From Aporrectodea caliginosa (Eukaryota; Annelida; Clitellata; Crassiclitellata; Lumbricidae), in assembly GCA_020284085.1 (NCBI GenBank), contig JACEVL010001161.1, positions 4,090,930 through 4,154,929 on the forward strand: a stretch of 64,000 nucleotides of DNA. The letters run 5' to 3'. The notes beneath the pieces were generated by a model. The model did no database searches. It saw only the letters and a list, made by a program, of their open reading frames with translations, and was not told where the DNA came from. The first letter of the stretch is position 1; each line of letters opens with the position of its first letter. The translations under genes were made by a program, and so were the position numbers. Below, one piece after another: positions 4,740-64,000 of the stretch.

Positions 4740-5899
4740 ATCAATTGAATTGAAATGCAACAACCAATATTCCACCATACGTTACGTTAATGCGATACGT
4801 TAAGTCAGTGTGACAAGAGCATTGTGTAGACATCGTTCATCACATCAGTTAGCAAGCATTTGCTAGATTCGGCATTTAAATGTTTAGCTCAATGACTTTC
4901 AAACTGTTTCATAGACATAATAAGAACTTATGGACGATGCGTCTTCTTTTCAGTTGCACTATGCTAATGATTGGACAAATCGACGAGGCCTGATCGTTTG
5001 AGACCTTCAAAAAGAAAGAGCACTAGTGGGCGCAAAACAGTTGTAAGAATTTGTTAAAGAGAATTTCTCTCATTTGAAAAAGCTTCTTACAAGCTGATTA
5101 TTTTGCTGAATGAATAACTGAGCACATTGGAAAAGCAAATTAAAATTGTAAGATGTGCAGGTTCTTACAAGCTCATTATTTTTGCTCAATTAATAACTGA
5201 GAAACGCAAGTCAAACCAGTCTTAAACTGAAATAAAATGCTTACATACATGTATAAAATAAGACTCCGCACATTTGGAAAAAATCAGCTAGCACTAATAG
5301 TCAAATAATCTCTAATTAAATATGAAGGAGCCGATGCAGATGAATGTGAACAGACGACGGAAAGAAAATGAATAGACCTATGATACAATACAGCTGTTAA
5401 CCCAAGAATGTGGCAGTAAACTGTGTCAATCAAAATGTAATCAGAGGGTAATATCATATTCAAGAAACTGCTAATCCTTATTGAAGCCCATAGTCTCAAT
5501 GAAGCTCAAATGACTCAACACTTCAAAGGTATTTTGTTTCATAAAAATAAATTTGCAGTTGACAAAAATGTTTTCACACTTTACGAACAACATTGTACTG
5601 AAAGTCAATGAGGCTCGTCGTTAAAGTGTTAAAAGACATTTTGTTCTAGCTCTTTGATGAAAACGTGGCAGGAATCAGTCAATGACTGTTGATAGGATAG
5701 CTTTATGAAAATAAAATCACTGCATTCAATTTTCAGTGTATGGAAGTCTTGCTGACTAAGTACATTAATTTTGCTGTTAGACCTAATTCGATCTTTATAC
5801 CATCTATGGCATTAACCTACTACACCAAATACCACATCAACAACCATCAAATAATTATAGATTGTCAATTTAAAAACCAGTTTAGATCAGTTACTGAAC
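4740..5899. other. Ly6 paralogue intron / duplicated non-coding DNA
   Basis: No gene is seen. This AT-rich stretch matches 41215-42280 of the right duplicate base by base apart from small changes. It lies downstream of exon 2 of the left Ly6 gene, so it is presumably the start of that gene's second intron. Confidence 0.6.
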
Positions 5900-6267
5900 C
5901 TGGACAGAAACGTGTTATTCATGGACAGAAGCGTTGTTCCTTCATAGTCACAAGCAGGAGCATTAGGACTTGAGCAGATGTAGCATTTCAGGTAATCTGA
6001 GTCAGACTCGTAGTCACCGTTGCACAAAGACACATTGCAAGTGGAGTAAGTAACTTGAACCAGCTGGAAGAAACGAGTTTTGCTATCTTTCTCTTTCTTT
6101 CGAACACTCCGGTCAGGGCCATATTTACTGATTTCTCGCTGTTCCTCAGAGGTCATGCAGCTGCGATTGAAACCAATCTTTTCTAAAGTTTCAATGCTTG
6201 ATGTATAGGACATTCCACATACATCATCTGGATTAGAACAGTTCTGTACAAACATCTTCCCCTTCAG
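5900..6267 (-). CDS. Ly6/uPAR multi-domain protein, left paralogue, exon 2
   Basis: This exon encodes the second half of Ly6 domain 1 and the first half of domain 2 of a GPI-anchored-type surface protein. It opens after the acceptor TTTTACAG at 6268-6275 and closes at 5900 before GT. Domain 1 supplies the C-x(6)-C, N-R-S-C and C-N-V-S-L-C-N cysteines; domain 2 begins L-K-C-Y-I-C. Length is 368 nt (122 codons plus 2 nt), identical to the right paralogue. The two differ at 5 exonic positions (3 amino-acid changing). The donor is GTTCAG, where the right copy has the better GTACAG. The open frame continues past both splice sites by chance. The final exon would lie left of position 1, so whether the gene is complete is unknown. 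Confidence 0.85.
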
Positions 6268-6811
6268 CTGTAAAATGAAAAAGTTTGCATCAGTAGGCCT
6301 ATACATGTATGTTATAGAACACAGGCTGGAATTTATATGAATCTACTTGTACATTTTATAGTAGAAACTGGAATCACAAAATTCATTTAGGTTATTTAAT
6401 CTATGCCAAATGTAAACAACATGACATTAGACATCCTTTCAGAGAAATCTAAGTGATTGTACCTTCATAATGTCAGCCTGTCAGCCTGAGCATATGATTA
6501 GTTGATTGCCCGTACTAGTGGGCAGTTCTCTTAATACTCATTGTTTGATCCTCCATTGACAAATTTATGAACAGTCTAAGAACACATTTCTTGGCCAAGT
6601 TTACTAAAGGGATCAAGGTGGACAAAATCGTAAGAGTTCAAATACCAGCCAGGATAGAATGGTTTTTAAAATTCCTACTTCTACTTAATCCAGCACGCTA
6701 ACCATCGAAGTATATGACGCTAACCAACTATCACAGTTCTATCTATAATCTGCTAGCTAATAATGAATGGTCAGATTGATTGGACTAAACTTGATCGCTT
6801 ATGTAGGCCTA

Positions 6812-7884: not shown

Positions 7885-9739
7885 CAAGGCCGTATTTAGG
7901 GGGGTGTTTTGGGTGTTTAAACACCCCCGAAATTAAATAATGTATTCATTCATTCATTCAAAAATTTATATAGCGCCCCTTCAAGGTAACTACTCAGAAG
8001 CGCGCCCAACTCCAGTCCGGCCAAAAAGGTAAGTTTTCAAGTGGCCATAAAAGTATCAGTACATGTTCTAGGGAACAAGCGTAGCTCCCGAGGGAGGCTA
8101 TTCCAAACCCTAGGGCCTACCACAGAGAATGCTCGGTTCTGCATGGTTGCTGTGCGGGCAAACGGGACCGCCACTACCCCCTCTCAGCAGAGCGGAGGGA
8201 GCGACTACCCTGAACCCCCGACACCGGCTTACAGAGGTCTATTAGGTAGGCTGGTGCAAGGCCAAGATGGCATCGCCAAACCAGAGAGACAACTCTATAT
8301 TCGATGCGCTGTCGGACAGGAAGCCAATGCAGAACTTCCAACATATACCTGGTGACATGATCAAATTTTGGTATTTGGCCGATGAGTCGCGCTGCAGCTC
8401 GCAGTACACGATCAAGGCAAGACAACCGGCTAGACGGCAGACCAGAATAGAGAGTTAAGCAGTGATCAAGACGCGCCGTAATGAAGGCATGAACAAGAGT
8501 GGTTGCAGCGCTCGCTGTAAGCGAACGTGCAACAGTACGGAGCTGACGCAGCTGGTAATAGCAATCACGACTAAGGCGATGCAGATGTGGCGCAAAGGTA
8601 AGCTCCTGATCCAACAGGATACCGAGGTCACGGGCTGTAGCTGAAAAGTTGTAGGTAGGAAATTTCAAAGCCAGGTCTTCCAAGTTAAGCTTGGCTAGCT
8701 GCTGCCTAGTTCCCAGCCACATGAATTTAGTCTTAGCAGCATTCAGACGTAAGCGATTAGATGACATCCATGTTTCTAATCTGACCAGGACACGACCCAT
8801 TTCCCCGACAGCCAAAGCAGCATCGGCAGGTCGGCAGTGAATATATGACTGTATATCATCTGCGTAAAGCTGGCCCTGGGCCCGACTCTCTGCCAGAAGT
8901 GTGGAAAGCCCAGAGGTATAGATGATATACAAGAGCGGACCAAGGACAGAGCCCTGGGGGAGACCATAAGGGGCAGGGACCCATCCAGACCTTGTAGGAC
9001 CATAGACCACACTAAGCGTACGCCCACTCAAGAAGGAGCTAAGCCAATCCAGGAACCCCCACACAGCCCAAATGTAGCATGCAAACGCTTAAGTAAGATG
9101 TCGTGGTCAACAGTATCGAAAGCGGCGCTGACATCAAAAAGTGCCAACAAGGTGAGCTCTGAACGATCGATAGCCCCGTAGATGTCAGATAAGAGGCGAA
9201 GCAGCAGTGTTTCCGTTGAATGAAACCTCCGGAATCCTGACTGGCATGATGGAAGGAGGTTGTTCTTTTCCAGGTGGCCAGTTAGTTGACACGCCACTAT
9301 CTTTTCGATGATCTTTGATAGAAAAGAAACATTGGCTATTGGTCTGTAGTTAGTCGGGTCCGCCTGATCCAGGTCATCGTTTTTTAAAGTCGGGATCAGT
9401 ATGGATCTCTTCTGCGACGGTGGTAGGACACCCTCCCGGATGGATCGGTTACATAACTCTGTAAGGAGCGGAAGTAACAAATCCAGATGTTCTTGAAGCA
9501 GGAAGGTCGGGAGGGGGTCGAGTATATATATAATGTATAATATAAATATTGCATTTATTAACATGTATACGGTGTAAGAACTAAGAGCACTCAAGTGAAG
9601 TTAGATGATGCAGCTCTACAGTGCTTTGAGAGCTCACAGCGCTCCTCCAAACCCCTTATAGACGGTTAACTTGGTTGCTTGTCGGCTTGTTCAAGAACGA
9701 GTAAACACCCTCCGAAACAAAATCCTGGCTACGGCCTTG
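7885..9739. mobile_element. hAT-type element inserted in the satellite
   Basis: The ends are CAAGGCCGTATTTAGG and CCTGGCTACGGCCTTG. They are flanked by GGTTCTAC (7877-7884) and GATTCTAC (9740-9747), an 8-bp duplication with one mismatch. Subterminal GTGTTTAAACACCC and GTAAACACCCTCC blocks are mirrored. Nearly all of the interior is a minus-strand LINE that inserted later. Confidence 0.75.
7938..9525 (-). mobile_element. L2/CR1-like LINE with reverse transcriptase, 5'-truncated
   Basis: Read on the minus strand, the frames 9594-9028 and 9064-8174 (joined by a frameshift near 9060) encode a reverse transcriptase: N-Y-R-P-I-A-N, S-G-F-R-R, F-D-V-S-A-A-F-D-T-V-D-H, G-L-P-Q-G-S-V-L-G-P, then the catalytic Y-A-D-D at about 8865 and L-H-W-L-P near 8330. 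The 3' end has the GCGCTATATAAAT signature and an (ATGA)-type tail at 7943-7962. The endonuclease domain is missing. The ATG near 9594 lies upstream of the LINE and is incidental. Confidence 0.9.
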
Positions 9740-19989: not shown

Positions 19990-21802
19990 GCGGCTTGCGT
20001 ATTTTCGAAATTTTTCGGTTCTTGTTTATCTTTTTAACTGAGTGACTGGATTAATAACACTATTTATACCTTTGGACACCGCGATAGTTGTTCAACTGAA
20101 ACTACGACTCATTTCTGGTGGATTATTTTTGATTTTTCTGAGACATGTCTACGCCTTCTACGTTTGTTTACACCGTTGACCTAATTAGGTCTCTTAACAC
20201 GTGCTCGCTAGCACTTCGTCGGCCAATACGAAAGACATTGTTTCGTCTCGGTCTATGGCGCCCGACCCGCTCGCCGGTCTGGACGACAACCTCTTCTACG
20301 CCTACGTACGTCTACACCGGTCCTACGCTAGGCCGGCCGTCAGCTCGGTCCTCGTCGACCATCCGCCTCGCTACACTGAATGTTCGCTCACTGACGAACA
20401 AATAATGTCTCTGTTGCCGATCTCATCTCGGCTCAGAGTCTGGACATTCTCGTGGTCACGGAGTCGTCGCATCTCTCCTCTGTGGACGTCGCTGTTCGTC
20501 GTGCTGCCCCACCTGGATTCTCGTTCATCGACCGACCAAGATCAGAGGCGCAGGATCCGGAGTCACGGGGTGGTGGCCTGATCATCTACCACGGCGCCAG
20601 CTTTGGAGCTCGGAGGATCGAGCTGCAACAAACTCCGACGACCTTCGAGGCTCTCGCGACTTCGATTTCATCTAAGCGTGGACCTGCCATCCTCCTGGCC
20701 ATCTACCGTCCAGGCTCATCTCCTCCATCTTCCTTGTTCTTCAGCGAGTTCTCAGCCCTACTGGAGCAATTCGCCTTATACAATGCGCAGTTGATCCTCA
20801 CTGGAGATCTTAACCTGCACCTGGAAGATCCGGCGCGTCCAGAGTCCTCTGAATTCGCCGTGATCATGGAACAATTTGGATTGGCTCAGCATGTTGCTGA
20901 GCCTACCCACAGCTTTGGTGGATGGCTAGACGTCATAGTCACCAGGGATGACTGCCAGGTGACGGACGTCAACGTTCATCCTCCCATCATATCTGACCAT
21001 GGTCTCGTGATCGCCTCCATTCCATTCATCTGCGAACCTTCGCTTCTCATCACTAGACGGATTCGTCTATGGAAAAAATTGGATCATGATGCCTTTCGTT
21101 CGGCGCTTCAGGCTCAACCTCTCTTCAATAACGTCGAAGCTTCATCCTCTTCGACTGCGGCAGAGATGTTCTCTTCCTATGAGGCAGTGATGTCAGAGCT
21201 CTTGGATTCGTTCCTTCCTTTACGAACAGTTCGATCTCGACATCGTCCTCTGTCCCCGTGGTTCAATGCGGATTGCAGAGCGCTTCGACGTCAGGCTCGG
21301 CGCCTCGAACGAGTCTACAGGAGAACGCGCTCTCCTTCAGACCGGACAGCCTGGATTCGTTTCGTCCGGAAAATGCACACCACCTACCGGGACAGAGAAC
21401 GGGACTACTGGGAGTCTCTCATCATCCGCCAGTCAAAGGAACCCAAGAAACTTTGGACTACGTTCAATGGTCTTCTTGGTTGCCATTCATCAAGCCACCA
21501 GCCGCAGTCTTCTCCGCCTTTCACCGCGGATGCGTTCTTGGAGCGTCTTACTGCCAAGATCGCATCCATCCGCGCTACTACTTCTACAGCTCCTCCACCA
21601 GAGTTCACTACTACTGACGCTCGTCTCTCCATCCTTAATGAGGTCACAAGCCTGGAGTTACGTCAACTCATTCTGGCCTCTGCACCGAAGACGTGTGAAT
21701 TGGACCCTGTGCCCACATTCCTCGTCCAAGAGCTCGTTGACGACCTCCTTCCCTTCCTCACCGAGCTCTGTAACCGGTCGATTCAGGAAGCTGAACTGCC
21801 TG
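19990..21802 (+). mobile_element. L2/CR1-like LINE, 5' half with endonuclease domain
   Basis: The frame from 20145, with a frameshift near 20400, gives L-A-T-L-N-V-R-S-L-T-N-K, then an apurinic-endonuclease-like domain: V-T-E-S, Y-R-P-G-S, L-T-G-D-L-N-L-H, and S-D-H-G-L-V (20452-21030). The linker to the reverse transcriptase follows (C-E-L-D-P-V-P-T-F-L-V, L-C-N-R-S-I-Q-E-A). The reading is cut inside the codons for L-P at 21798-21802 by a TIR transposon and resumes at 23925. Codon use is GC-rich compared with its surroundings. Apart from the insertion and frameshifts it is close to full length, about 3 kb. The exact 5' end is uncertain. Confidence 0.9.
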
Positions 21803-22689
21803 TCACGAAATAGAGTATCCCCCATTAGAATTATATCCCCTTAGCGAAATGAAGTATCCGGCCGGATGAATCTGAACGTGAAGGACTATCCCCCTCGTGC
21901 GAAAGTATCCCCCATGAGTCGTACGAAATCATCCCCCATTCAAAAAGTATCCCCCTGCAAATTAATTGCAAATTGGGCTATTTAAATAAATTTATAACCA
22001 TAGTTGGTAAAAACGGTTAAAACTTAAAACTGAATCATAAACGAAAAATGTAGTCTTTTCAACAACAACAAATAAAAAACGAAAAAACGGGACAAAAGAA
22101 CCTAGAAAATAATTTCACTCTATTACATCTTGTACTGCATTTTGAAAGTTAAAACTGTATTTAAACAATTATTTAATTTTAATCAGCAAACAACCCAATT
22201 AAGTAACATTAATCTACAACAATTATTTTATTTTTATATGTTTTGTTTAATAAGAAATTGAGAAATTAAAAATATTGAAATCTTTCCTAATTTAAATTGT
22301 AAGCATAAGTCCACATAGGCTAAGTCCATGCTGACTAACATAAACTAACATAATTATTAAAAACTAAACTTTGTGAGTATAGAGTGTAGTCTAACTTACT
22401 TTATTAAAACGTGTAGGCCTACTTACAATTTTTACTTATATAAAACTTGATAAAAATTATGGAGAAATATAAGTCAGTTTATCAGTCAGTCGGAGATTAC
22501 TGTATATAAAGACAACATTTCGCATATTTGGATAACTTAGAAATTCAAATAACTTTTATAAATTTTATTTCTGGTACTGTGCTATTTATTTATGAAATGA
22601 TGACATTAAATAGTGACGGAATTATCTGAATCCTTGAAAGTACGGAGACAACGTAGGGGATTTAAGACAAAATGCAATTAAGACACAGT

Positions 22690-23430: not shown

Positions 23431-23924
23431 AAAGGGAAACAAGCTGACTTGAACAACTTTTGCACAAACGTACAGTCAAAGCAGCAAACATTAAGAATGA
23501 ATTTAACTAAATGAAATGTGGTGTGCACAGTTCTATAATCAATACGTAAAAAATTATTCGCCCTCATAGAGCCGTGAAGCAGTTGAACTGAATTTATGAT
23601 CTGAAAGAGCGCATTCACTTTAGTGGAAAAGTGCTTCAAAGTGAACATTTAAATGGACTTTTGAACTTCAAGGCTCACTTAGAGTCACTTGCTTTAAATA
23701 TTCTGGCTTTGGATTTTGATTAAAGTATATATTTATAAATTATACGCATTAAAAAAAATAATACCTTATACCTGTGCATTATTATCCCCCGGGGGATAAT
23801 TTCACACGATGGGAGATAGAAATGGTTTATCTCCCCGGATACTCTATACCGGTATAGTCTATCCGGGGGGATAAATTCATACACCCCCCGGATAGTCCTA
23901 GGACGGATACTCTATTTCGTGATA

Positions 23925-25113
23925 CCGGCGTCACAGAAGCGATCTGTTCTTCTTCCTGTCTTGAAGCGAGATGGACTGGACGCAAGTGATCCTGCGAATT
24001 ACCGTCCTATCGCTAATGTGACATTCCTCTCTAAAACTTTGGAGCGTATTGTAGCTAACCAACTGTTTGTTTATTTAGACATGCATGGGTTGCTACCTCC
24101 CTTACAGTCGGGTTTTCGGAGGAATCATTCCACCGAGACTTTGTTGGTTCGCCTTCTTTCGGACTTCTATGGCGCCATGGACAATGGTCAGATAACTCTT
24201 TTGGCCCTATTTGATGTCAGTTCCGCTTTTGATTCTGTCGACCACTCAATCCTCCTTCAGCGTCTTTCTGTCTCCTTTGGGCTGACTGGCAAACCCTTAG
24301 ATTGGCTTTCTTCCTTCCTCACTGGGCGCACTAACTGTGCTGTTGTTGGGTCCTCTAGGTCCCGCTGGGTCCCTGCCCCTTTTGGAGTACCCCAAGGGTC
24401 GGTTTTGGGCCCTTTGCTATACATCTTGTATACGTCTGATATTAGTTCCCTGCTGCGGTCTAGTGGGCTACTACATCAGCTTTATGCTGATGATATACAA
24501 GCGTATGTCCACTGCCGTGCGGCTGATGCGGTGGCCTCTGTTGGGCTGATGTGCCATTGATGCCCTCTCTGGTTGGATGGCCTCAAACCGTCTGCTCCTT
24601 AACCCATCCAAAACTCAGTTTATTTGGCTTGGTAGTCGCCGACAGCTGGCCGGTGTAGACATGCAACTGTTGGCTGAAACTTACCCTCATGTCACTTTTT
24701 CACTTACTGTACGTGACCTTGGAGCGACGCTCGACCAAGAGCTTAGTTTTTCTCAACATGTTAACTTGCTTACACGAAGCTGTTACTACCAGCTCCGCCA
24801 GCTGCGTGTTGTGCTCCGATCTCTCTCTCATGATGCTGCCGTCGGGCTCTGCGTTCCTCGGCCAAAGGAGAGCTCCTTGTCCCCCGGGCCCGTTTATGTC
24901 TCAAGCAGCGCCGAGCCTTTTCGGTTGTTGGGCCCTCAACCTGGAATGGGCTCCCACTTGAGCTGCGCTTGATGCCTCGCAGCAATTTGCCTGCTTACTG
25001 CCGCCTTCTCAAGTCTTCTCTGTTTAGCCGTGGCTGGGCTGGGAGCGCCTCTGAGTAGGTTCCTTGAAGGGGCGCTATATAAATGCTCGGAATGAATGAA
25101 TGAATGAATGAAT
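23925..25113 (+). mobile_element. Same LINE, 3' half with reverse transcriptase and GAAT tail
   Basis: The frame resumes with P-A-S-Q-K-R-S-V-L-L-P and runs through N-Y-R-P-I-A-N, S-G-F-R-R-N-H-S-T-E-T, F-D-V-S-S-A-F-D-S-V-D-H, G-V-P-Q-G-S-V-L-G-P and the catalytic Y-A-D-D at about 24486. A frameshift near 24555 leads into the thumb (24577-24835). About 200 codons are then deleted before P-R-A-R-L-C (near 24880). The 3' end is GGGAGCGCCTCTGAGTAGG, GGGGCGCTATATAAATG and (GAAT)n to 25113. Confidence 0.92.
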
Positions 25114-25236: not shown

Positions 25237-25725
25237 CTACTCAAATTTGGCACCTGAACGTATGCTTCTTAAAAGTTTTTTGTCTGCTAATATTCTGTCA
25301 TAAAATTCAACACATGTTTCTTCCATATTCACTTTCACTATCATAACAGCTTCAAGAGTTTCTTCTGATAATCGACTTTTTTGATCTGACCAATAAGAGT
25401 TCATCAGTGAGAAAACTCGCTCAACTGGAGCATTAGTTCCAGGAATTGCTAACAAGAATTGTAGAATCATTTTCAAATTTGGAATAATTATCTCTCTTTC
25501 TTGTAGATCATTGAAAATCTGCACCCATCTGCTATCCACCGCAACATTGTTTTCATTCCATTGTTCCACTTTTTCTCGACTAACAAAATTACAAACGCAT
25601 GTCATTTCATCAAACAGTGCATTGTCATCAATGTCATACCCAGCTGGCTTGCAAATTTTGATAAGATCCTCAAGGCTTCTTTCAAACATATCCCAAGTAA
25701 TTGTTCCTCTCGAATTCATCCAACT
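25237..25725 (-). pseudogene. hAT transposase C-terminal fragment
   Basis: 160 codons read on the minus strand include L-L-A-I-P-G-T-N-A-P-V-E-R-V-F-S-L-M-N and K-S-R-L-S-E-E-T-L-E-A-V, the hAT C-terminal dimerisation region (A-x-x-E-R-x-F-S motif followed by R-x-x-L/M-x-x-x-x-L). The upstream zinc-finger and DDE catalytic parts are absent from the flanking DNA, and no TIR is seen here. The ATG at 25719 is probably internal to the original protein. The fragment is free of stops, so it may be a young deletion derivative or, less likely, an exon of a domesticated gene. Confidence 0.8.
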
Positions 25726-26059
25726 GAACAGCTTGAATGGTGCATAGGCTAACTATAACTTCCCACATGTCAAAATATTCCAACGAAGTTGCATAAAAAG
25801 ATTGAACTGTTTTATGAAAATGTGTTTTATCATAATATTATCACTACGACAATATGACGTTTAGAACCGGAAGAGGTATTATGCATGGTAATAAATAAAT
25901 AAACGTGAGATTAAAAATGAATTTACTCGCCAGATGCCAGTAGTAAAATCAAGGAGACGTTGATAAAGTAAGTAAGTAAGTATATCCTTTATTTGATCAC
26001 ATGACAAACGCACATGAAATACATCATATATAAGATCGGAAAGTCAGGTCAGTTTAATA

Positions 26060-27507
26060 ACTCCTCCTGTCTTCTCCTCCACTGCAGCTGTTCTCTCTTC
26101 GTGGAAGCCTCTTCAACCTGATGTCATCCGTCAACTCATAATGGACTCTTCTTCGAAGTCTTGCGAACTTGACTTACTTCCTCCATTCTTAGTTAAGGAA
26201 TTTTTAGATGAACTTGTTCCGTTTTTGGTAATTCTATGTAACTCTTCGCTGGCCCAGGGCTACGTACCTGCATTGCATAAAGGGCTGTGGTTTTCCCTTC
26301 CATCAAGCGACAAGGTCTTGACCCTGGCTCCCCTTCAAATTACCGCCCTATCTCAAACTTGTCTTTCCTCTCGAAGCTTCTTGAGAAATGTGTGTCTGTA
26401 CAACTGGTTCACTACCTTGACCTACACTCACTAATGCCTCCTCTTCAGTCTGGATTTAGGAAATTTCACTCGACAGAATCTCTTATGGTGAGTCTTCTGG
26501 CTGATGTATTTCATGCCGTTGATCGTGGCCATGTCACTCTACTTTCCCTCTATGACATTAGTGCCGCTTTCGACACTGTTGATCACACCATCCTTCTTGA
26601 CCAGCTCTCTAACTCATTTGGGATTACTGATTCTGCTCTTCTCTGGTTCCGCTCATTTCTTTCTGATCGCTCCGTCTCGGTAGTTTTTGGTCCCACCCGC
26701 TCTGCTTGGGTCCCCCTCTCTTACGGGTTACCTCAGGGCTCGGTTCTTGCTCCCCTTCTGTTTGTCCTGTATACTTCGGATCTGGCTGTTATGGTCGAGC
26801 GTATTCTAGAGGCTTCAGCTGCTCTTGACCGATGGTTATCCTCAAATCGCCTCCGTCTTAACCAAGACAAGACTCAGTACATATGGCTCGGTAGCCGTGC
26901 CCAGCTTACCAAGATTAATGCTGACTCCCTTCGTCTTCGGTTTCCAAATATGCACTTCTCTTCCTCTGTCCGTGATCTTGGATTCATTCTTGATCCTGGC
27001 CTCTCTCTGTCTGATCACGTAAATAGTGTCTCTCGTTCCTGTTTCTACTACCTACGCCAACTCCGTGCCATCCGCCAATCACTACCACTGCACACTATCA
27101 CGACTGTTTTGCTGGGTCTGCTCCTCACTATCTTAGGGCCTTTTGTACCCCAGTATCTTCTCTGCACAGTCGTTCCTTCCTTCGGTCCTCGGCCCGTGGT
27201 TACTTGGTTGTCCCGCGGGTGCGTACTTCTACGGCCCAGTCTAGGAGTTTCGCTATTGTTGGTCCCAATAGCTGGAACCTGTTACCTCAGTTCCTCAGGA
27301 CTGACCTTTTTCTATTTCTTTTGACGAGTTCCGCAAGCGCCTGAAAACCTCCCTTTACCAGTGATCCTGTCCTCTCTCTGTCTGATCACGTAAATAGTGT
27401 CACTCGTTCCTGCTTCGACTACCTACGCCAACTCCGTCGGGTCGGGAGCGCCTCTGTTTTGAGTGGCGCTATATAAATGCTTGATTACGATTATGATTAC
27501 GATTACG
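26060..27507 (+). mobile_element. L2/CR1-like LINE, 5'-truncated, catalytic box deleted, GATTAC tail
   Basis: 26141-26290 and 26287-27095 (frameshifted) encode D-L-L-P-P-F-L-V, N-Y-R-P-I-S-N, S-G-F-R-K-F-H-S-T-E-S, Y-D-I-S-A-A-F-D-T-V-D-H and G-L-P-Q-G-S-V-L-A-P. The sequence then jumps from Y-T-S-D-L-A to the post-palm V-E-R-I-L, so the expected Y-A-D-D segment is missing. The 3' end is GGGAGCGCCTCTG..GAGTGGCGCTATATAAATG and a GATTAC-type tail to 27507. Confidence 0.88.
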
Positions 27508-32456: not shown

Positions 32457-33230
<774 letters not shown>

Positions 33231-37012: not shown

Positions 37013-38879
37013 TCAGGGGTTTGTACCCATAGCTTTGATCGATGCTGAAATAACGATGCCGACAACAAAAGCTATCCAACTGCCACTGCAACGACTTGAA
37101 CCACCTTCCCCTGATTTGTCCATTGGATCATCATCAGCATTAAAAGGCTTTGTTATCCTGTCGGCTGGATCTACATAAGGCATTGTGGCATTACGAAATT
37201 CTAGATTAGCAAAGTCCGAGGGCATCACGTCCTCCTCCTCGAACTCGAACTGCGCAGCCGCTGCTCCAGGATCAACTGATTTTGTGCTTTTCACCAGATA
37301 TTTAGTAAATGTCTTAGCAAGTTCTTTGTTACATGCATCATCTGTGCAGAAGGCCATGTAAATTGTGACACTGGTATCTTTGTTATCCAAAAACATTGTT
37401 AGATTGCCATAAGTTGCCTTGTAGAAATCGGCCTGTACTGCAGGCATGCATTTTCTCACAATGGATTTAATTTCATTTATTTCTGAATTATGTCGAACAA
37501 CAATAGCACAGACATGAGGATCATGTGAGGGACATCTGGTCAGTAATGATGGATCAGACGCTTCCAGTTTATCTCCTTCTAAATCACAGTCTGAGTTTTC
37601 CATTGAACATTCATAGCAGCTGATTGATGTGCGATTTGAATCAGGAAAGTGTAGGTTACATAGCGGGTAATGGCAGTGAAACATGTGATGTTCAACCGTA
37701 CCATCATCAGGTTCTCCCTCAAGAGCAATCAGGCTCTTCCCATATCGTTCCTTCAGAGCCAATATTTCAGTTGCTGGTGCACAGGTGCGGTTAATGTTGT
37801 ACTGTTCATCCCCGGTTGACCTGACATGATATGACATGAAGCATCTGTAGTCTTCAGTATTTGGACAAACAACAATGAAGTTTCGCAAGTTTTCAGTCAT
37901 CTCATAAGCGCAGTGCTTATCATTTGACATATGACAGCTGTAACATCTCAGTGGAGGTCTGACCGACAGCACTGCCTCATGCTCGGCTGGAAATTTTTGG
38001 TTACACTGTGGAATGTAGCAGAAGTACATGTATATGTCCACACCTGGTGCTGAATCTTCCTCGAATACTGCAACATCATGTTCATCACCATAAAGCGCTA
38101 GGAACCTGTCCGCATTCTCTCTTGAGATGCAATTTCTAACAATGCTCAGTGGCTGACCAAAGATTTTTGCATCCACTTGGATACGGTAGGACATGCTGCA
38201 GATGTCATCTGGATTATCACAGGCTTTCAGGTGAATGGTGTTCAGCCTCTTTCCATCAAGTGTACATTCTGAATTGTGCTCTTGAGAGCAGTCATAGCAA
38301 GTCAGATCCGCTGGACTGTACTTTGGGAATTTGGCATTACAGCCTGATGAGCCACAAACAGTCATATGGTAGCTAGCCCTGCCAACATAATCCATTTTAG
38401 CATATATTCCTGAAAGGCTTTTTCCTCCGTAAGTGTTCTTATATCGCAGGGCTTCCTCTTTTGAAACACAAGATCTGACAACATTCTGGGTTTTCATTGA
38501 ACGAAGGTCCACTTTATACCACATTGTGCAGTACTGTGGCGATGTATCTGGACAAGGCTTCAGCAGATTAGAATCATCAGAAAGTCTTGAGCCTTCAAGA
38601 TCACAGTCTGGATCATTCACATCGTTGCAAACAATGCACGATATTGGCACATACTCATCTGGAAAAGCCAAGTTGCATCCAGTAGTGTTGCACACAAAAA
38701 GATGGGTCTCAAGGCTTGATGAGTTGTTTTCAGTACCTACAAGTTTATCTCCAAGTATGCGTCTCTTGTTGTGAAGATCAGCTTCAGAGATGCAAGTTCG
38801 TGACACTTCAACGTCATTAATTGTGCCACCAGGTTCCATCTTGTATGACGAGGCACATTGATATGAACCAGAAGGACAT
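37013..38879 (-). CDS. Six-domain Ly6/uPAR GPI-anchored protein, terminal exon
   Basis: Terminal exon of a predicted 784-residue cell-surface protein (residues 163-784). It starts after TTGGTTTTCAG (acceptor AG at 38880-38881), completing an Arg codon split 2+1 with exon 2. It finishes domain 2 and encodes domains 3-6, each with the Ly6/uPAR pattern C-x-x-C ... C-x(6-7)-C ... R/N-x-C ... Y-G ... C-x(4)-C-N: about residues 244-344, 357-456, 475-571 and 584-680. A Glu/Asp-rich linker follows, then S-G-E-G-G-S-S and a 14-residue hydrophobic tail (about 764-777), typical of a GPI-anchor signal. Ly6 proteins act at the membrane as receptors, ligands or modulators; the partner here is unknown. The open frame extends upstream to an ATG at 38917, but that lies in the intron. 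Expression is probably driven by the promoter near 46735-46845. Confidence 0.9.
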
Positions 38880-39069
38880 CTGAAAACCAAAGGTATATTA
38901 GCATTAACTACTCTCAAAAATAATGTCCGCTTATAAGAGACACTGGTGGAACAGCAATGCTGAAAGACAAGTTGTTTAGTGATAGGTACAAAACTGCTGT
39001 GGCCTATACCAAAATAGTGTGGCCTTTATTGATAAATCATATAATCATTTAGCCAAGGAATAAAAACTT

Positions 39070-41094: not shown

Positions 41095-42280
41095 GTGACT
41101 GGCCATTGTTTGTCTAAGAAGGGGGGTTACGGTAGGCTATATGTACGCATTGACAAGAACGTTGAGAATATTCAGCGCTTGAGGGTTACGGGACGTGCGC
41201 ATTATTACTTCAGTGATACGTTAAGTCTATGTGACAAGAGCTTGTATAAACTTTGTTGATCATATCAGTTAGCAAGCATTTGTTTCATTGAATTTATCGT
41301 TTCATAAAATAAGAAATCAAAACTTAGAGACTTCTTTTGATTTGCATTATGCTAATGATTGGTCAAATCGACGAGGCCCGATCGTCTGAGACCTTCAAAA
41401 AGAAAGAGCACTCGTGTGCGCAAAACAGTTGTAAGAATTAGCTTCAGAGAATTTCTCTCATTTAAAAATGCAAGTTAAATTGCAAGAAGCACAGGTTCTT
41501 TCAAGCTGACTATTTTCCCGAATGAATTACTGATAAATACAAGCCACACCAGTCTGGACTGAAATAAATTGCTATGTGGTTAAGCAATAGGTTTAAAATT
41601 ATACATAAAGTAAAACTCTGCACATTCATTTGGAACGAAATCAGCTACCTGGTAACACTAATAGTCAAAAAACCTCTAAATTAAATATGAAGCAGGCTCA
41701 TGCATTCTGATGAATGTGAATAGACGACTGAAAGTTAATACATATGATACAAGACATCTGTTAACCCAAGAATGTGGCAGTAAACTTTGTCAATCAAAAG
41801 GTGATAAGAAGACAATATCATATTCAAGAAACTGTTAATCCTTATTGAAGCCCATAGCCTCAATGAAGCTGAAGTGACTTGAACACTTCAAAGGTGTTTT
41901 TTTAAATAAAATTACTTTCCTGTTGAAGAAAAAGTTTTCTTTAACACTTTAACAATGACAATGTACTAAAAGTGACAGGTAAACCAATGCTTCTCGTCGT
42001 TAAAGTGTTAAAGGGATCAAGAAAATTTCTTCTTCCTGTTTGATGAAAACTTTCAAGCAATCAGTCAATGCTTGTTGACAGAATAGCTTTATGAAAATAT
42101 AATCATTGCATTCAAATTTCAGCATATGGTAAGTCTTACTGAGTACATTGATTTTGCTGTTAGACCTAATTCGATCTTTATACCATCTATGGCATTAACC
42201 TACCAATAACACATCAACAACCACCAAATAATTATAGAAAGATTGTCAATTTAAAAACCAGTTTAGATCAGTTACTGTAC

Positions 42281-42648
42281 CTGGACAGAAACGTGTTATT
42301 CATGGACAGAAGCATTGTTCCTTCATAGTCACAAGCAGGAGCATTAGGACTTGAGCAGATGTAGCATTTCAGGTAATCTGAGTCAGTCTCGTAGTCACCG
42401 TTGCACAAAGACACATTGCAAGTGGAGTAAGTAACTTGAACCAGCTGGAAGAAACGAGTTTTGCTATCTTTCTCTTTCTTTCGAACACTCCGGTCAGGGC
42501 CATATTTACTGATTTCTCGCTGTTCCTCGGAGGTCATGCAGCTGCGATTGAAACCAATCTTTTCTAAAGTTTCAATGCTTGATGTATAGGACATTCCACA
42601 GACATCATCTGGCTTAGAACAGTTCTGTACAAACATCTTCCCCTTCAG
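42281..42648 (-). CDS. Six-domain Ly6/uPAR GPI-anchored protein, exon 2
   Basis: Encodes residues 41-162 and two bases of codon 163. Acceptor TTTTACAG precedes 42648; donor AG|GTACAGTAAC follows 42281. The exon covers the second half of domain 1 (C-x(6)-C-G-M-S-Y, N-R-S-C-M-T-S, S-T-C-N-V-S-L-C-N) and the first half of domain 2 (L-K-C-Y-I-C to N-N-T-F-L-S). Joining to the terminal exon reproduces the spacing seen in domains 3-6, which supports the model. Intron 1 is phase 0 and intron 2 phase 2, and both fall inside Ly6 domains. The ATG near 42720 is in the intron. Confidence 0.9.
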
Positions 42649-42999
42649 CTGTAAAATGAAGAAAGTTTGCATCAATATTTTATGGAACACAGACTGGAAT
42701 TTAAGTGAATCTACTTGCACATTTTATAGTAGAAACTCGAATCACAAAATTTATTTAGGTTATTTAATCTACGCCTAATGTAAACAACATGACATTAGAC
42801 ATCCTTTCAGAGAAATCTAAGTGAATGTCAGCCTGTCAACCTGAGCATATAATTACCCGTGGGCAGTTCTCTTAATACTCATTGTTTGATCCTCCCATTG
42901 ACAAATGAACAGCCCATGAACACATTTCTTAACCAAGTTTACTAAAGGGATCAAGGTGAACAGAATCTTATAAGTTTAAATAACAGCCAAGATATCTGT

Positions 43000-48529: not shown

Positions 48530-49602
48530 TAATAATATCAATGGACTTTTCTAAAGCTTTTGACTCTATCAGTCACTCTGCAATAACCCAATTACTAGCA
48601 TCTCTCTCCCTTCCGGACTACATCTACAACTGGCTAATCAACTACCTGAACGGAAGAAAGCATTAAACCATCTACAAAGGTCAAAAATCCAGAGTAATTT
48701 CAATCAACGCCAGTGTCATCCAAAGCTCAGTATTCGGCCCAACTGGTTTCATTGTTGGCATATCCGGCCTCCATCCTATTCATCCTCAAAATCGTCTCTC
48801 CAAATACGCTGACGATTCGTACCTCTTCATCGGATCAAACTCCCTTCACACCGCAGAAACAGAACTTCAACATATCCACAACTGGTCAGAGGAAAAGAAC
48901 CTAAAATTAAACTCCTCCAAAACCCGTGAAATGGCAGTCATCAAGCATAACCAATCCTCACTCTCGAACAAACCCTCAATCACCGGTATTCCTCGCTCTA
49001 CCTCAATAAAAGCCCTAGGCGTCACCATCGATGAAAAACTTTCAGTCACGGAACACATCAACAAAGTCGTCAAAAGTGGATCTGCTTCAATCTTCGCCCT
49101 CAAAACACTCAAAAACCATGGTGCTTCTGCAGATTCTCTACAACTGATCACCCGCGCAACCATCATAGCCAGAACAATGTATGCTTCCCCCGCCTGGTGG
49201 GGACTGGCGAGCGAAAAGGACAAATCCCGCATAGAACGTCTGAATAACAGATTAATACGCTCTGGTTTTATTCAGTCAGATTCCCCTTCTACAAATGTTC
49301 TTGCTAGTAAAGCAGACATTTCACTCTTTAAGGCCGTCCTCTTAAATGAGAATCATTCACTCAGATGCCTATTTCCTAACCAACATTTTACGCCCTATTT
49401 TCTTAGGGTCAGACCACATAACTTTAACCTTCCTGACAAGGACTCGCGAAATTTTATATCTCGCATGTTATTCCTGAACTCTTACTAAGCTATTATTAAT
49501 TCATACTATAATATCTAGATGTAGTTTTTTCTATGTACACGTACACCTACAGCGTTATGTCTGTTGTTAACACATTAAACGAATATATGATGATGATGAT
49601 GC
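48530..49602 (+). mobile_element. Jockey/I-type-like LINE, 5'-truncated, ATG tail
   Basis: 48535-48930 (broken by a stop and frameshift) reads F-S-K-A-F-D-S-I-S-H, Y-I-Y-N-W-L-I-N-Y-L, then L-S-K-Y-A-D-D-S-Y near 48800-48830. The frame 48931-49488 gives L-G-V-T-I-D-E-K-L-S, H-I-N-K-V-V, A-W-W-G-L and L-R-C-L-F-P. A (GAT)n tail lies at 49588-49600. It differs in sequence and tail from the L2/CR1-like LINEs. Confidence 0.85.
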
Positions 49603-54962: not shown

Positions 54963-54992
54963 TGAATATTAACGTCTGATACAGGCATAAAC

Positions 54993-56276
54993 ATGATTAC
55001 GCAAGAAAAATTTAGCGACTGGAGCGCAATGTCCGGTCTGCTTCTTGGCTTCTGCATCCTATGCACGGTTTCGATCGTTTACGGTTCGGAAATCCGTTGC
55101 TATATCTGCAATTCTGTTGACCATTCTGACTGTGGGATCGACGGTAGTCGGCTAATAGCTGAACTGAATTCGACTTTCCTAAGGCCGTGCATCCGGACGA
55201 ACTCCGTCTGCTCTCTGTCCTACAAGATGACGACAGCGGAGCCTCGGGGAGACTCGACGAGGAGACACTCATACGCGAGGAACTGCATCGCCAGGGACGA
55301 GAAGGCGCATCTACAGTCATCCGCGGCCGAGGAGATGATCGCTTCGGAGGCGGGCAACGCAGATACCCTCCTAGTTAGAGATCTCACCGCAAGTAACACT
55401 AAGCTACGAATGTACTTTTGCGAGTTTTCCGGATGTAACTACAAGTATCCAGAGAGTGACCTGGAGCAGCAGCAGCAGCAGTTTTCCATCAGCTGCTATA
55501 GCTGTTCATCGACAGCCAGCGGCGACAGCTGTGGCTTCATTCTGTCGGTTCAGGAAGCGGAGCAGGTCCTGACTGCCTGTCCGGCCAGCCACCTCTGTCT
55601 CAGTTCCTACAGACAGGACACGAACAGCCGGACGAGATTCGACTTCAACCGGAGCTGCGTGTCCGTGACAGAGGTGACACTGCTGAGGCGCATCTACGGC
55701 AACGAACTGGTCGGCATCGCGTCTGATTCCTCCGACCAGATCCGCTACTTCGCCTGCGACAGCCCCGGATGCAACGACGTCTTTCCAGGGTCCAACATCA
55801 CTTCCATCTCATGCTTCGTCTGCAACGAATCGACGACCATCTGCAACGATATCGACGGACGGAGTCTTGGTACTGCGGCTGGCAAGGACTTCCTTCGTCC
55901 CTGCCCCACAGGGGAACCGCATCGTTGCTCCGTTATGATCTTCTACGACTCGAAGAAGGAACTCGCCACGAAGATAGATCGCCAATGTATGATGGAAAGA
56001 TTGGTTCAGGTCTACCAGCAGAGCGGTGGAGACGCTCCGATCATTAAGACGAGCGATCCGAGCGAGACATTCTACATGAGCTTCTGTCGTACCACTGGGT
56101 GCAATCGGGCATACGGTCGGCCAGACCTCTTGCCAGGACCCACGACCCAGCAGCCATTCAGTCCATCAACATTTGGACGGGAGCTGGACATGCAGAAAGA
56201 AGCCAGCGCAGAAAATATAGGCAACATATCACTTATCGCTTTACTCATACTAATCGGCACCTTCTGCACTTCATAG
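54993..56276 (+). CDS. Intronless three-domain Ly6/uPAR GPI-anchored protein
   Basis: Encodes 427 residues. A signal peptide (hydrophobic core about residues 14-30, cleavage near Y-G-S) leads into three Ly6/uPAR domains: about 36-149 (C-Y-I-C ... C-E-F-S-G-C-N), 168-261 (C-Y-S-C ... C-D-S-P-G-C-N) and 274-371 (C-F-V-C ... C-R-T-T-G-C-N). A Pro/Thr linker follows, then a hydrophobic tail (about 411-425), fitting a GPI signal. Domain order and motifs (N/R-x-C-x(6+), Y-G, C-x(4)-C-N) match the six-domain gene. There is no intron, although the six-domain gene is split inside two domains. A glutamine run (159-163) separates domains 1 and 2. A second in-frame ATG at codon 13 is an alternative start and would also give a signal peptide. 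Codon use is GC-rich. Likely membrane-surface or shed; ligand unknown. Confidence 0.9.
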   Translation: MITQEKFSDWSAMSGLLLGFCILCTVSIVYGSEIRCYICNSVDHSDCGIDGSRLIAELNSTFLRPCIRTNSVCSLSYKMTTAEPRGDSTRRHSYARNCIARDEKAHLQSSAAEEMIASEAGNADTLLVRDLTASNTKLRMYFCEFSGCNYKYPESDLEQQQQQFSISCYSCSSTASGDSCGFILSVQEAEQVLTACPASHLCLSSYRQDTNSRTRFDFNRSCVSVTEVTLLRRIYGNELVGIASDSSDQIRYFACDSPGCNDVFPGSNITSISCFVCNESTTICNDIDGRSLGTAAGKDFLRPCPTGEPHRCSVMIFYDSKKELATKIDRQCMMERLVQVYQQSGGDAPIIKTSDPSETFYMSFCRTTGCNRAYGRPDLLPGPTTQQPFSPSTFGRELDMQKEASAENIGNISLIALLILIGTFCTS

Positions 56277-62539: not shown

Positions 62540-64000
62540 ATGCCCTTCGACGGTCGATCAGTGGTTGTTGAGACACGCGCAGAGTTCTGTACGAACCAAC
62601 GCGGTGGTAGCGGTGGTAGCGGCGAGATGGATCGCAGTTCGACGGATCGGACTTCGACGGCTGAGTCAGAGGCTGGAACATCGTCCATCGACGTCTCTTC
62701 TGATCCCGTCCAGCTGAACAACATCCTCTCCGTCAATGACTCCGATCAGCCGGCAGCAGCTGAGGCCGAACTGGAGTCACCGTCATGCAATAAAGCGCTG
62801 AATCGTGACCAGGGAGTCCTGAGCGGTAGGGTGGATGATGATGTCCCGATGGCGTCGACTTCGAAGGGAGTAGGAGGGGTCTGTGCGCTGTCTGAATCCC
62901 TGAAGCACCCGCGGAAGTCCCTTCCTCTGCTGCCGCGTATGAGTCAGTACGAGCGACACCCGCTGCTTCAGGTCCGACCTGGAACCGGTCTGTCTGAGTT
63001 CGAGCTGTTTCTGCTCGAGAAGGACCTCTTCAAGAAACGATGCTCCGTCGACGACCATCCGTCGGACCCTGCTGCTGAGACAGGCGGAGCCTCTTCTGCC
63101 TCATCCCACTGCCATTCCTCATCCGCTCGTGGTAGCATCGTTCGAGAGGAGGAGCGCAAGCTGATCCCACGCAGCGCTCACTACGAGCCGCACCCGCTGC
63201 TGAGGAAATCCGTGTCCGGGGTCTGCGAACTGGAGCTGTACCTGATGGAGAAGAACGAGGAAGTGACGAGGAGACAACGAGCCATCGACAGGGACCATGA
63301 CGATGACGATGACGATGACGACGACGGCGATGGTCTGAGGACGACCAGCATTAAGAAGGGTCAAGGTCGGTCAAAGCTGGAGCCTCGAATGAACCAGTGG
63401 GAGAAGCACGCCCTTCTGGAGGTCAAGGACAAGGCCGGACTGTCGGAAGTCGATCGCCTCTTCCTCGACACTGAGCAGCAGCAGCAGCAACAGCAACAGG
63501 AAGAGCGAGGTAAGTGTGGCGCCGAATGTGTCTGCAAGAGTGCCACGTGCAAGAGATGCAAGAAGCAGCAGCAGAGGCAACAGAATCAAGCGCTCCAGTC
63601 GCCCACTTCCAACCTCCAGCAGAACTTAGAGGCCTCCATATGGAAGGGTGACTCGTCCAAGACTTCTGAAGATTCGTCCTCTGCCACCAGTGCCGCTCCC
63701 TTGCTCTGTCAGAAGCCGCATGGTCATCAGCAGAAGCGCGTCCACTTCGAGAGACAGAAGAACGAAGCGGACGACTCTGGCATCGCATCGTCTGACGCCA
63801 GTTGCCCAGCAACCAGACAGGATGACGTCAGCGCACCGGAAGTGAGCGCGCGAAACAGCAACGCCACCTATGGTAAGCAGCTGAAAAACGACGGAGATGA
63901 TCGAAAAGAGATCGGAACAGACGAAACAGCAGCTGGAACAGACGATAGAAAGAACAGACGAGCGTTTAGGACGGATAAACAAGGAAACAAGTCATGCTGT
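62540..64000 (+). CDS. Unrecognised protein with three YE-x-H-x-LL repeats (partial, runs off the window)
   Basis: The frame is open from ATG 62540 (in-frame stop at 62525) to the window end, 487 codons. A strong G/C bias at third positions up to about 63870 argues it is coding. Three motif copies occur: residues 132-162, 210-239 and 282-312, each P-R-x-x-[QH]-[YW]-E-x-H-[PA]-L-L followed 7-8 residues later by G-[LV]-[SC]-E-[FLV]-[ED] and an acidic end. Between them are Ser-rich spacers, nine consecutive Asp (254-262) and Gln x8 (313-320). A Cys cluster (326-340), K-R-V-H-F (399-403, PP1-docking type) and D-S-G-I-A-S (412-417, phosphodegron type) follow. No signal peptide or membrane segment; probably an intracellular, largely disordered regulator. 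Consensus donors GTAAGT at 63510 and GTAAGC at 63873 (both phase 1) mean the exon may end at either; after 63872 the coding bias fades. ATG 62627 is an alternative start. I do not recognise the family. Confidence 0.75.
   Translation, partial: MPFDGRSVVVETRAEFCTNQRGGSGGSGEMDRSSTDRTSTAESEAGTSSIDVSSDPVQLNNILSVNDSDQPAAAEAELESPSCNKALNRDQGVLSGRVDDDVPMASTSKGVGGVCALSESLKHPRKSLPLLPRMSQYERHPLLQVRPGTGLSEFELFLLEKDLFKKRCSVDDHPSDPAAETGGASSASSHCHSSSARGSIVREEERKLIPRSAHYEPHPLLRKSVSGVCELELYLMEKNEEVTRRQRAIDRDHDDDDDDDDDGDGLRTTSIKKGQGRSKLEPRMNQWEKHALLEVKDKAGLSEVDRLFLDTEQQQQQQQQEERGKCGAECVCKSATCKRCKKQQQRQQNQALQSPTSNLQQNLEASIWKGDSSKTSEDSSSATSAAPLLCQKPHGHQQKRVHFERQKNEADDSGIASSDASCPATRQDDVSAPEVSARNSNATYGKQLKNDGDDRKEIGTDETAAGTDDRKNRRAFRTDKQGNKSCC

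Follow-up and report, generated by a model that had tools for sequence, protein, structure and literature searches.

What is encoded by the long open reading frame at the end of the analysed window, a stretch of 64,000 nucleotides from the annelid Aporrectodea caliginosa? A first-pass annotation had noticed in this frame a three-copy motif of about 31 residues, and had read it as a functional unit of an unrecognised protein. The questions raised by the locus are whether the frame is a gene, how far the repeated unit is conserved and what a protein built in this way may do in the cell.

A protein-coding gene at the end of the window

The frame that starts at 62540 represents a real gene, apparently with a single coding exon (Table 1). 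Within 62540-63998 it is free of stops for 486 codons, base shuffles of this stretch (n = 500) reached at most 288 in any of the six frames, and the GC content differs between the codon positions (0.61/0.46/0.65). The protein has the C-terminal end KSCCMS; its final two residues and the stop codon fall in the 9 bases past the window and were read in the assembly. Two splice-donor-like sequences inside the frame, GTAAGT at ~63510 and GTAAGC at ~63873, were considered as exon ends and rejected: the close relatives P0002-P0004 are in frame across both, and the conserved CaaX box lies downstream of both sites, as does KRVHF for the one at ~63510. When the 1.098-Gb genome of the animal was searched with the window protein, 24 candidates were scored, and the sole match at E ≤ 0.001 was the gene itself. 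The genome also has seven matches to PF16915, the annelid family of haemoglobin linkers (best E 1.7e-30), which occurred in none of 14 control genomes. The best linker exon is closest to linker L1 of PDB 2gtl, from Lumbricus terrestris (E 5e-66, 223.6 bits), without being identical to it, and scores much lower against 4u8u, from Glossoscolex (137.4 bits); judged by these linkers, the animal is very probably an earthworm, perhaps a lumbricid.

Table 1. Features of the gene and its protein (window numbering)
Feature	Position	Strand	Residues	Remarks
Protein-coding frame	62540..64000	+		489 aa; stop codon ends at 64009; relatives P0002-P0042
Repeat 1	62924..63034	+	129-165	LLPRMSQYERHPLLQ..GLSEFELFLLEK; repeat HMM E 4e-18 (own copy among seeds)
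Repeat 2	63158..63265	+	207-242	LIPRSAHYEPHPLLR..GVCELELYLMEK; repeat HMM E 5e-18 (own copy among seeds)
Repeat 3	63374..63487	+	279-316	LEPRMNQWEKHALLE..GLSEVDRLFLD; repeat HMM E 1e-17 (own copy among seeds)
Cys-rich block	63515..63559	+	326-340	CGAECVCKSATCKRC; possible metal site
KRVHF, putative PP1 docking motif of RVxF type	63734..63748	+	399-403	[KR][RH]V[HR]F in 40/42 members
DSGIAS	63773..63790	+	412-417	resembles beta-TrCP phosphodegron DSGxxS
CaaX box, start	63995..64000	+	C486-C487	M488-S489-stop outside the window; Cxx[SL] ends 40/42 members

Elsewhere in the window, long open frames at 37013-39025 (-) and 54966-56276 (+) carry several Quiver-type u-PAR/Ly-6 domains (PF17064, E 1.3e-20 and 2.2e-13). 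Two frames of 151 amino acids about 36 kb apart, 5887-6342 (-) and 42268-42723 (-), are near-identical by eye and probably reflect a local duplication; the former has a sub-threshold match to PF17064 (E 7.3e-5). Frames resembling parts of non-LTR retrotransposons were recognised by eye at 381-1148, 8174-9600, 20395-21813, 23820-24560, 26281-27324 and 48667-49488, and a domain scan of three of them found RVT_1 in 48667-49488, an endonuclease domain in 20395-21813 and no match in 381-1148. A hAT dimerisation domain matched at 25237-25752 (-), and a long run of GA dinucleotide type at 32514-32999 reads as (RE)n or (LS)n depending on the strand.

Relatives of the protein

Three protein searches revealed 41 relatives. 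The window sequence itself found 11, a profile added 12, and a profile with its variable parts masked added a further 18; the total is a lower bound, since the two profile searches scored only about 7990 candidates sharing most words. Homologous frames in related species, to which the first-pass annotation had pointed as a check, are thus present. Together with the window protein (P0001) the family has 42 members. A source name accompanied two of the relatives, P0021 and P0025, both as 'hypothetical protein', and a species name only one of the 41 (P0025). P0025 is LSH36_57g06009 of the annelid Paralvinella palmiformis, a protein of 620 amino acids with no function given in its record. It shares with the window protein the three modules, the Cys block, KRVHF and a C-terminal CaaX-like end, CTMS, but is longer and has longer spacers. 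A viral contig collection contained no relatives, and the one locus found in contigs of prokaryote genomes (L001) was taken as a chance match, the frame around it being broken by stops.

No known domain was recognised, as had been supposed from the letters of the frame. Pfam gave no convincing match for 41 of the 42 members (P0042 left out): the strongest value, Phage_zn_bind_8 with E 0.0019 in 2 of 24 members, plausibly concerns the Cys block and was set aside, and no other value, each seen in one or two members, was better than 0.014. NCBIfam reached a best E of 0.041 for 24 members, and the PDB, searched by sequence and by profile, returned nothing useful; its sole profile match, ribosomal L25 (E 0.66), was short and taken as chance. 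Among the open-licence papers of PubMed Central that were searched, none could be connected with the family. A search there for the motif letters found only YEPHPLL in a paper on a Toxoplasma kinase, judged to be a coincidence.

A repeated module of about 36 residues

The motif P-R-x-x-[QH]-[YW]-E-x-H-[PA]-L-L was found where it had been described, at residues 132-143, 210-221 and 282-293 (nucleotides 62933, 63167 and 63383), and each copy is followed by G-[LV]-[SC]-E, at a distance from His to Glu of 13, 12 and 13 residues in a hand count. Aligned locally in pairs, the three segments scored 80, 81 and 47. Shuffling the segments 2000 times never reproduced the modules, the highest 'lowest of three' being 27; 1000 whole-protein shuffles gave at best 33 versus 52 observed.

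A repeat HMM detected 119 copies in the 42 proteins, while 1050 shuffled proteins contained no copy; it was built from 63 strict matches of the same family, and the 119 copies are a description rather than an independent test. The module comprises about 36 residues with a consensus of about [KR]LxPRTxQYE[KR]H[PA]LLxx[KR]DESGLSELExfLxEKE. Thirty-three proteins have three copies, two have four, five have two and two have one. In the four-copy proteins P0036 and P0039 the extra copy apparently lies ahead of the usual three. Four of the seven proteins with fewer than three copies look cut short (P0023, P0024, P0040 and P0042), and P0008, P0010 and P0028 look complete with two, repeat 3 being absent. 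The earlier reading of a repeated functional unit is supported.

When each repeat of the 33 three-copy proteins, 19 of which sit in one cluster, was compared with those of other 50%-identity clusters, the nearest repeat had the same position for 33/33 first, 33/33 second and 23/33 third copies; nine of the remaining third repeats were nearer to a second and one to a first. This agreement means that the first two copies had become distinct by the time the family diverged; the same is likely, though less clear, for the third. The spacers of these proteins range from 7 to 91 residues between the first and second module and from 15 to 368 between the second and third, and each module therefore seems independent of the next.

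AlphaFold2 models of the window protein (24 sequences) and of P0033 (34 sequences) had low overall confidence, with mean pLDDT values of 52.6 and 57.9. In both, the GLSELE..EK half was helical in all six module copies and was the best-predicted stretch, with means of 10-residue blocks reaching 81-91 in the window protein and 89-92 in P0033. A short helical turn at HPLL was modelled in four of the six copies, and bridges flanking the following turn in three. The PRxxQYE half had no secondary structure, with block means of ~53-70 in the window-protein model. Because the models are of low confidence and this half is poorly predicted in the window protein, the fold of the module is tentative. In the window protein a further helix was modelled at 338-352, where the Cys block ends. 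A Foldseek search with the P0033 model yielded no match at E ≤ 10.

Conserved elements outside the modules

The repeats had been described as the only ordered-looking parts of the protein. This does not quite hold, as the Cys-rich block, KRVHF and the CaaX end are conserved as well. In the Cys block the pattern C-x3-[CF]-x-C-x4-C-x2-C is found in 12 of 42 members, the Paralvinella protein among them, a different spacing, C-x2-C...C-x-C, in 15, and neither in the other 15; P0005 is without the block (0/21). Two spacings in different members suggest a small metal-binding knuckle that rearranged. Substrates of beta-TrCP have the consensus DSG-hydrophobic-x-S. The corresponding DSGIAS occurs in five of 42 members, the window gene and its nearest relatives P0002-P0005, and this putative degron is lineage-specific.

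Downstream of the repeats, and amid divergent surroundings, 40 of 42 members keep the RVxF-type pentapeptide; the same number of proteins end with Cxx[SL]. Both exceptions are the same two proteins, P0022 (251 aa) and P0042 (184 aa), which look cut short; the end of P0022, CSAG, fits a looser CaaX pattern, which would give 41, and was left out of the count. As given in PMC4794898, the short RVxF consensus is [RK]x0-1[VI]{P}[FW] and occurs by chance in about 25% of proteins, and a stricter form also needs a basic residue at the first position. KRVHF agrees with the short form; the residue ahead of it is Gln, so the first position of the extended form is not basic. What speaks for PP1 is the constancy of the motif. 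The CCMS of the window protein fits the CaaX rule, with Cys at -4, a hydrophobic a2, a prenyl-selecting X and a place at the very C-terminus. X is Ser in 35 and Leu in 5 of the 40 ends; according to PMC9141697, Ser at this position predicts farnesylation and Leu geranylgeranylation. Judged from the sequences, the RVxF-type motif and the CaaX box, both absent from the first-pass annotation, are the best clue to function.

Site rates were estimated from 34 protein sequences over 486 window columns, the final three residues lying outside the alignment. Mean relative rates were 0.41, 0.46 and 0.67 for repeats 1, 2 and 3, so repeat 3 diverges faster than the others, and 0.38 for residues 396-405 around KRVHF. 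PRKSLP (0.79), the Cys region (0.88) and the last 11 columns (0.93) followed, the latter evolving at about average speed except for Cys486. The spacers, the N-terminus and residues 406-475 had rates of 1.2-1.4, in part an artificial contrast, since misalignment inflates the rates of spacers. Among the 40 slowest sites, 33 were in the repeats, five were K399-F403, one was Cys486 and one Met30, which belongs to a poorly covered region of the alignment. Close relatives are less affected by misalignment. In aligned columns after residue 30 and outside eight named blocks, identity was 175/267 to P0003, 175/275 to P0004 and 46/206 to P0005, and in repeats 1, 2 and 3 it was 30/37, 36/36 and 34/38 (P0003), 35/37, 33/36 and 28/38 (P0004) and 34/37, 32/36 and 22/38 (P0005).

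Proposed function and alternatives

On the basis of the conserved CaaX box and RVxF-type motif, and with the precedent of TIMAP (see below), we propose that the protein is a PP1 scaffold anchored to a membrane, whose three modules bind a partner. A prenylated scaffold of this kind, recruiting PP1 and binding its partner through the modules, has in our estimate a probability of roughly 55 %. The protein would be largely disordered and cytosolic, a scaffold present in annelids and perhaps in a wider range of lophotrochozoans. Its C-terminal CaaX box would be farnesylated (X = Ser), or geranylgeranylated in the few relatives with X = Leu, and would hold it at a membrane, while KRVHF would dock the catalytic subunit of PP1. 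In each module, PRxxQYE would form an extended segment that leads into HPLL, a turn and the predicted helix GLSELExfLxEKE, and the three modules could serve as independent binding units for one partner or one class of partners. Such partners may thereby be collected at the membrane and exposed to PP1. We infer prenylation, PP1 binding and multivalent partner binding from the conserved motifs; for the modules, docking onto a partner would be likelier than the binding of peptides that had first been considered. At somewhat less than even odds, this may be widened to a whole family of lipid-anchored scaffolds for PP1 holoenzymes, annelid or perhaps lophotrochozoan in extent, with an undescribed hook-and-helix module of ~36 residues, whose copies were distinct in the ancestor of the family and which would bind a membrane-signalling partner.

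In one alternative reading the protein is likewise a membrane-anchored scaffold, its function lies in the modules alone and KRVHF has a role unrelated to PP1. It draws on the frequency of RVxF-like pentapeptides by chance (PMC4794898) and on the incomplete agreement with the extended consensus, but a pentapeptide that is kept after the repeats in nearly all members, and that evolves as slowly as the slowest repeat sites in otherwise divergent surroundings, makes it rather doubtful. The modules themselves might be sorting signals, three AP sites on a lipid-anchored protein that recruit coat adaptors. Acidic dileucine motifs, [DE]xxxL[LIM], are bound by AP adaptor complexes, and the module core does read E-x-[HN]-x-L-[LF]. 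The motif occurs in 92 of the 119 copies, an upper bound as the module plus 2-3 flanking residues was searched, and in 32/33 first and 29/33 third repeats of the three-copy proteins. Only 14/33 second repeats contain it, however, many having LF instead, and the constant P-R, Q-Y, H/N, G and E-[LF]-E positions would be superfluous for a dileucine signal, which leaves this explanation improbable.

Three repeats next to a PP1 motif also recall a Phactr-like regulator of PP1 and actin, with the modules as diverged actin-binding RPEL repeats, and PRxxQYExHPLL is loosely like the RPEL core. Pfam RPEL did not match any of the 41 members scanned (of 42) even at E ≤ 1, the HPLL contains a Pro, and the predicted helix comes after the motif and does not contain it; we regard such an origin as very improbable. 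The low-complexity spacers with their Asp and Gln runs could finally suggest a chance open frame, a pseudogene or a repeat expansion devoid of function. The shuffle results, the open frames of 41 relatives and the strongly uneven site rates contradict all of these, and we give this explanation practically no weight.

Comparison with known systems

A lipid-anchored PP1 targeting protein is of a known kind; for the module and the family, the libraries searched gave no convincing match. If the proposed scaffold is correct, annelids, and perhaps other lophotrochozoans, have a PP1 targeting protein with a module absent from these libraries. The constant sites Val401/Phe403, Cys486 and the Glu and Leu of the modules define exact point mutants, by which the function is directly testable.

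Repeats and PP1 binding are combined in one protein in the Phactr family, PP1 regulators with RPEL repeats. The window protein resembles them in having repeats and a PP1-type motif, through which it may bind PP1, and differs by the missing Pfam RPEL match, another motif and another predicted secondary structure. Closer is TIMAP (PPP1R16B), a PP1 regulatory subunit of the MYPT family, for which PMC10296329 describes an RVxF motif together with a CAAX box at the C-terminus that allows localisation at the plasma membrane. Both elements are likewise found in one protein here, in the form of sequence motifs. TIMAP also carries ankyrin repeats at its N-terminus and a MyPhoNE motif, whereas the window family is without a Pfam ankyrin match in the 41 of 42 members scanned. 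The MyPhoNE pattern, R-x-x-Q-[VIL]-[KR]-x-[YW], was found in none of the 119 repeats, to which the scan was confined. In the window protein, moreover, the RVxF-type motif lies near the C-terminus and is accompanied by three modules of a new type. The protein may thus work like TIMAP, but without ankyrin repeats, and without MyPhoNE in its repeats, it is not a member of the MYPT/TIMAP family.
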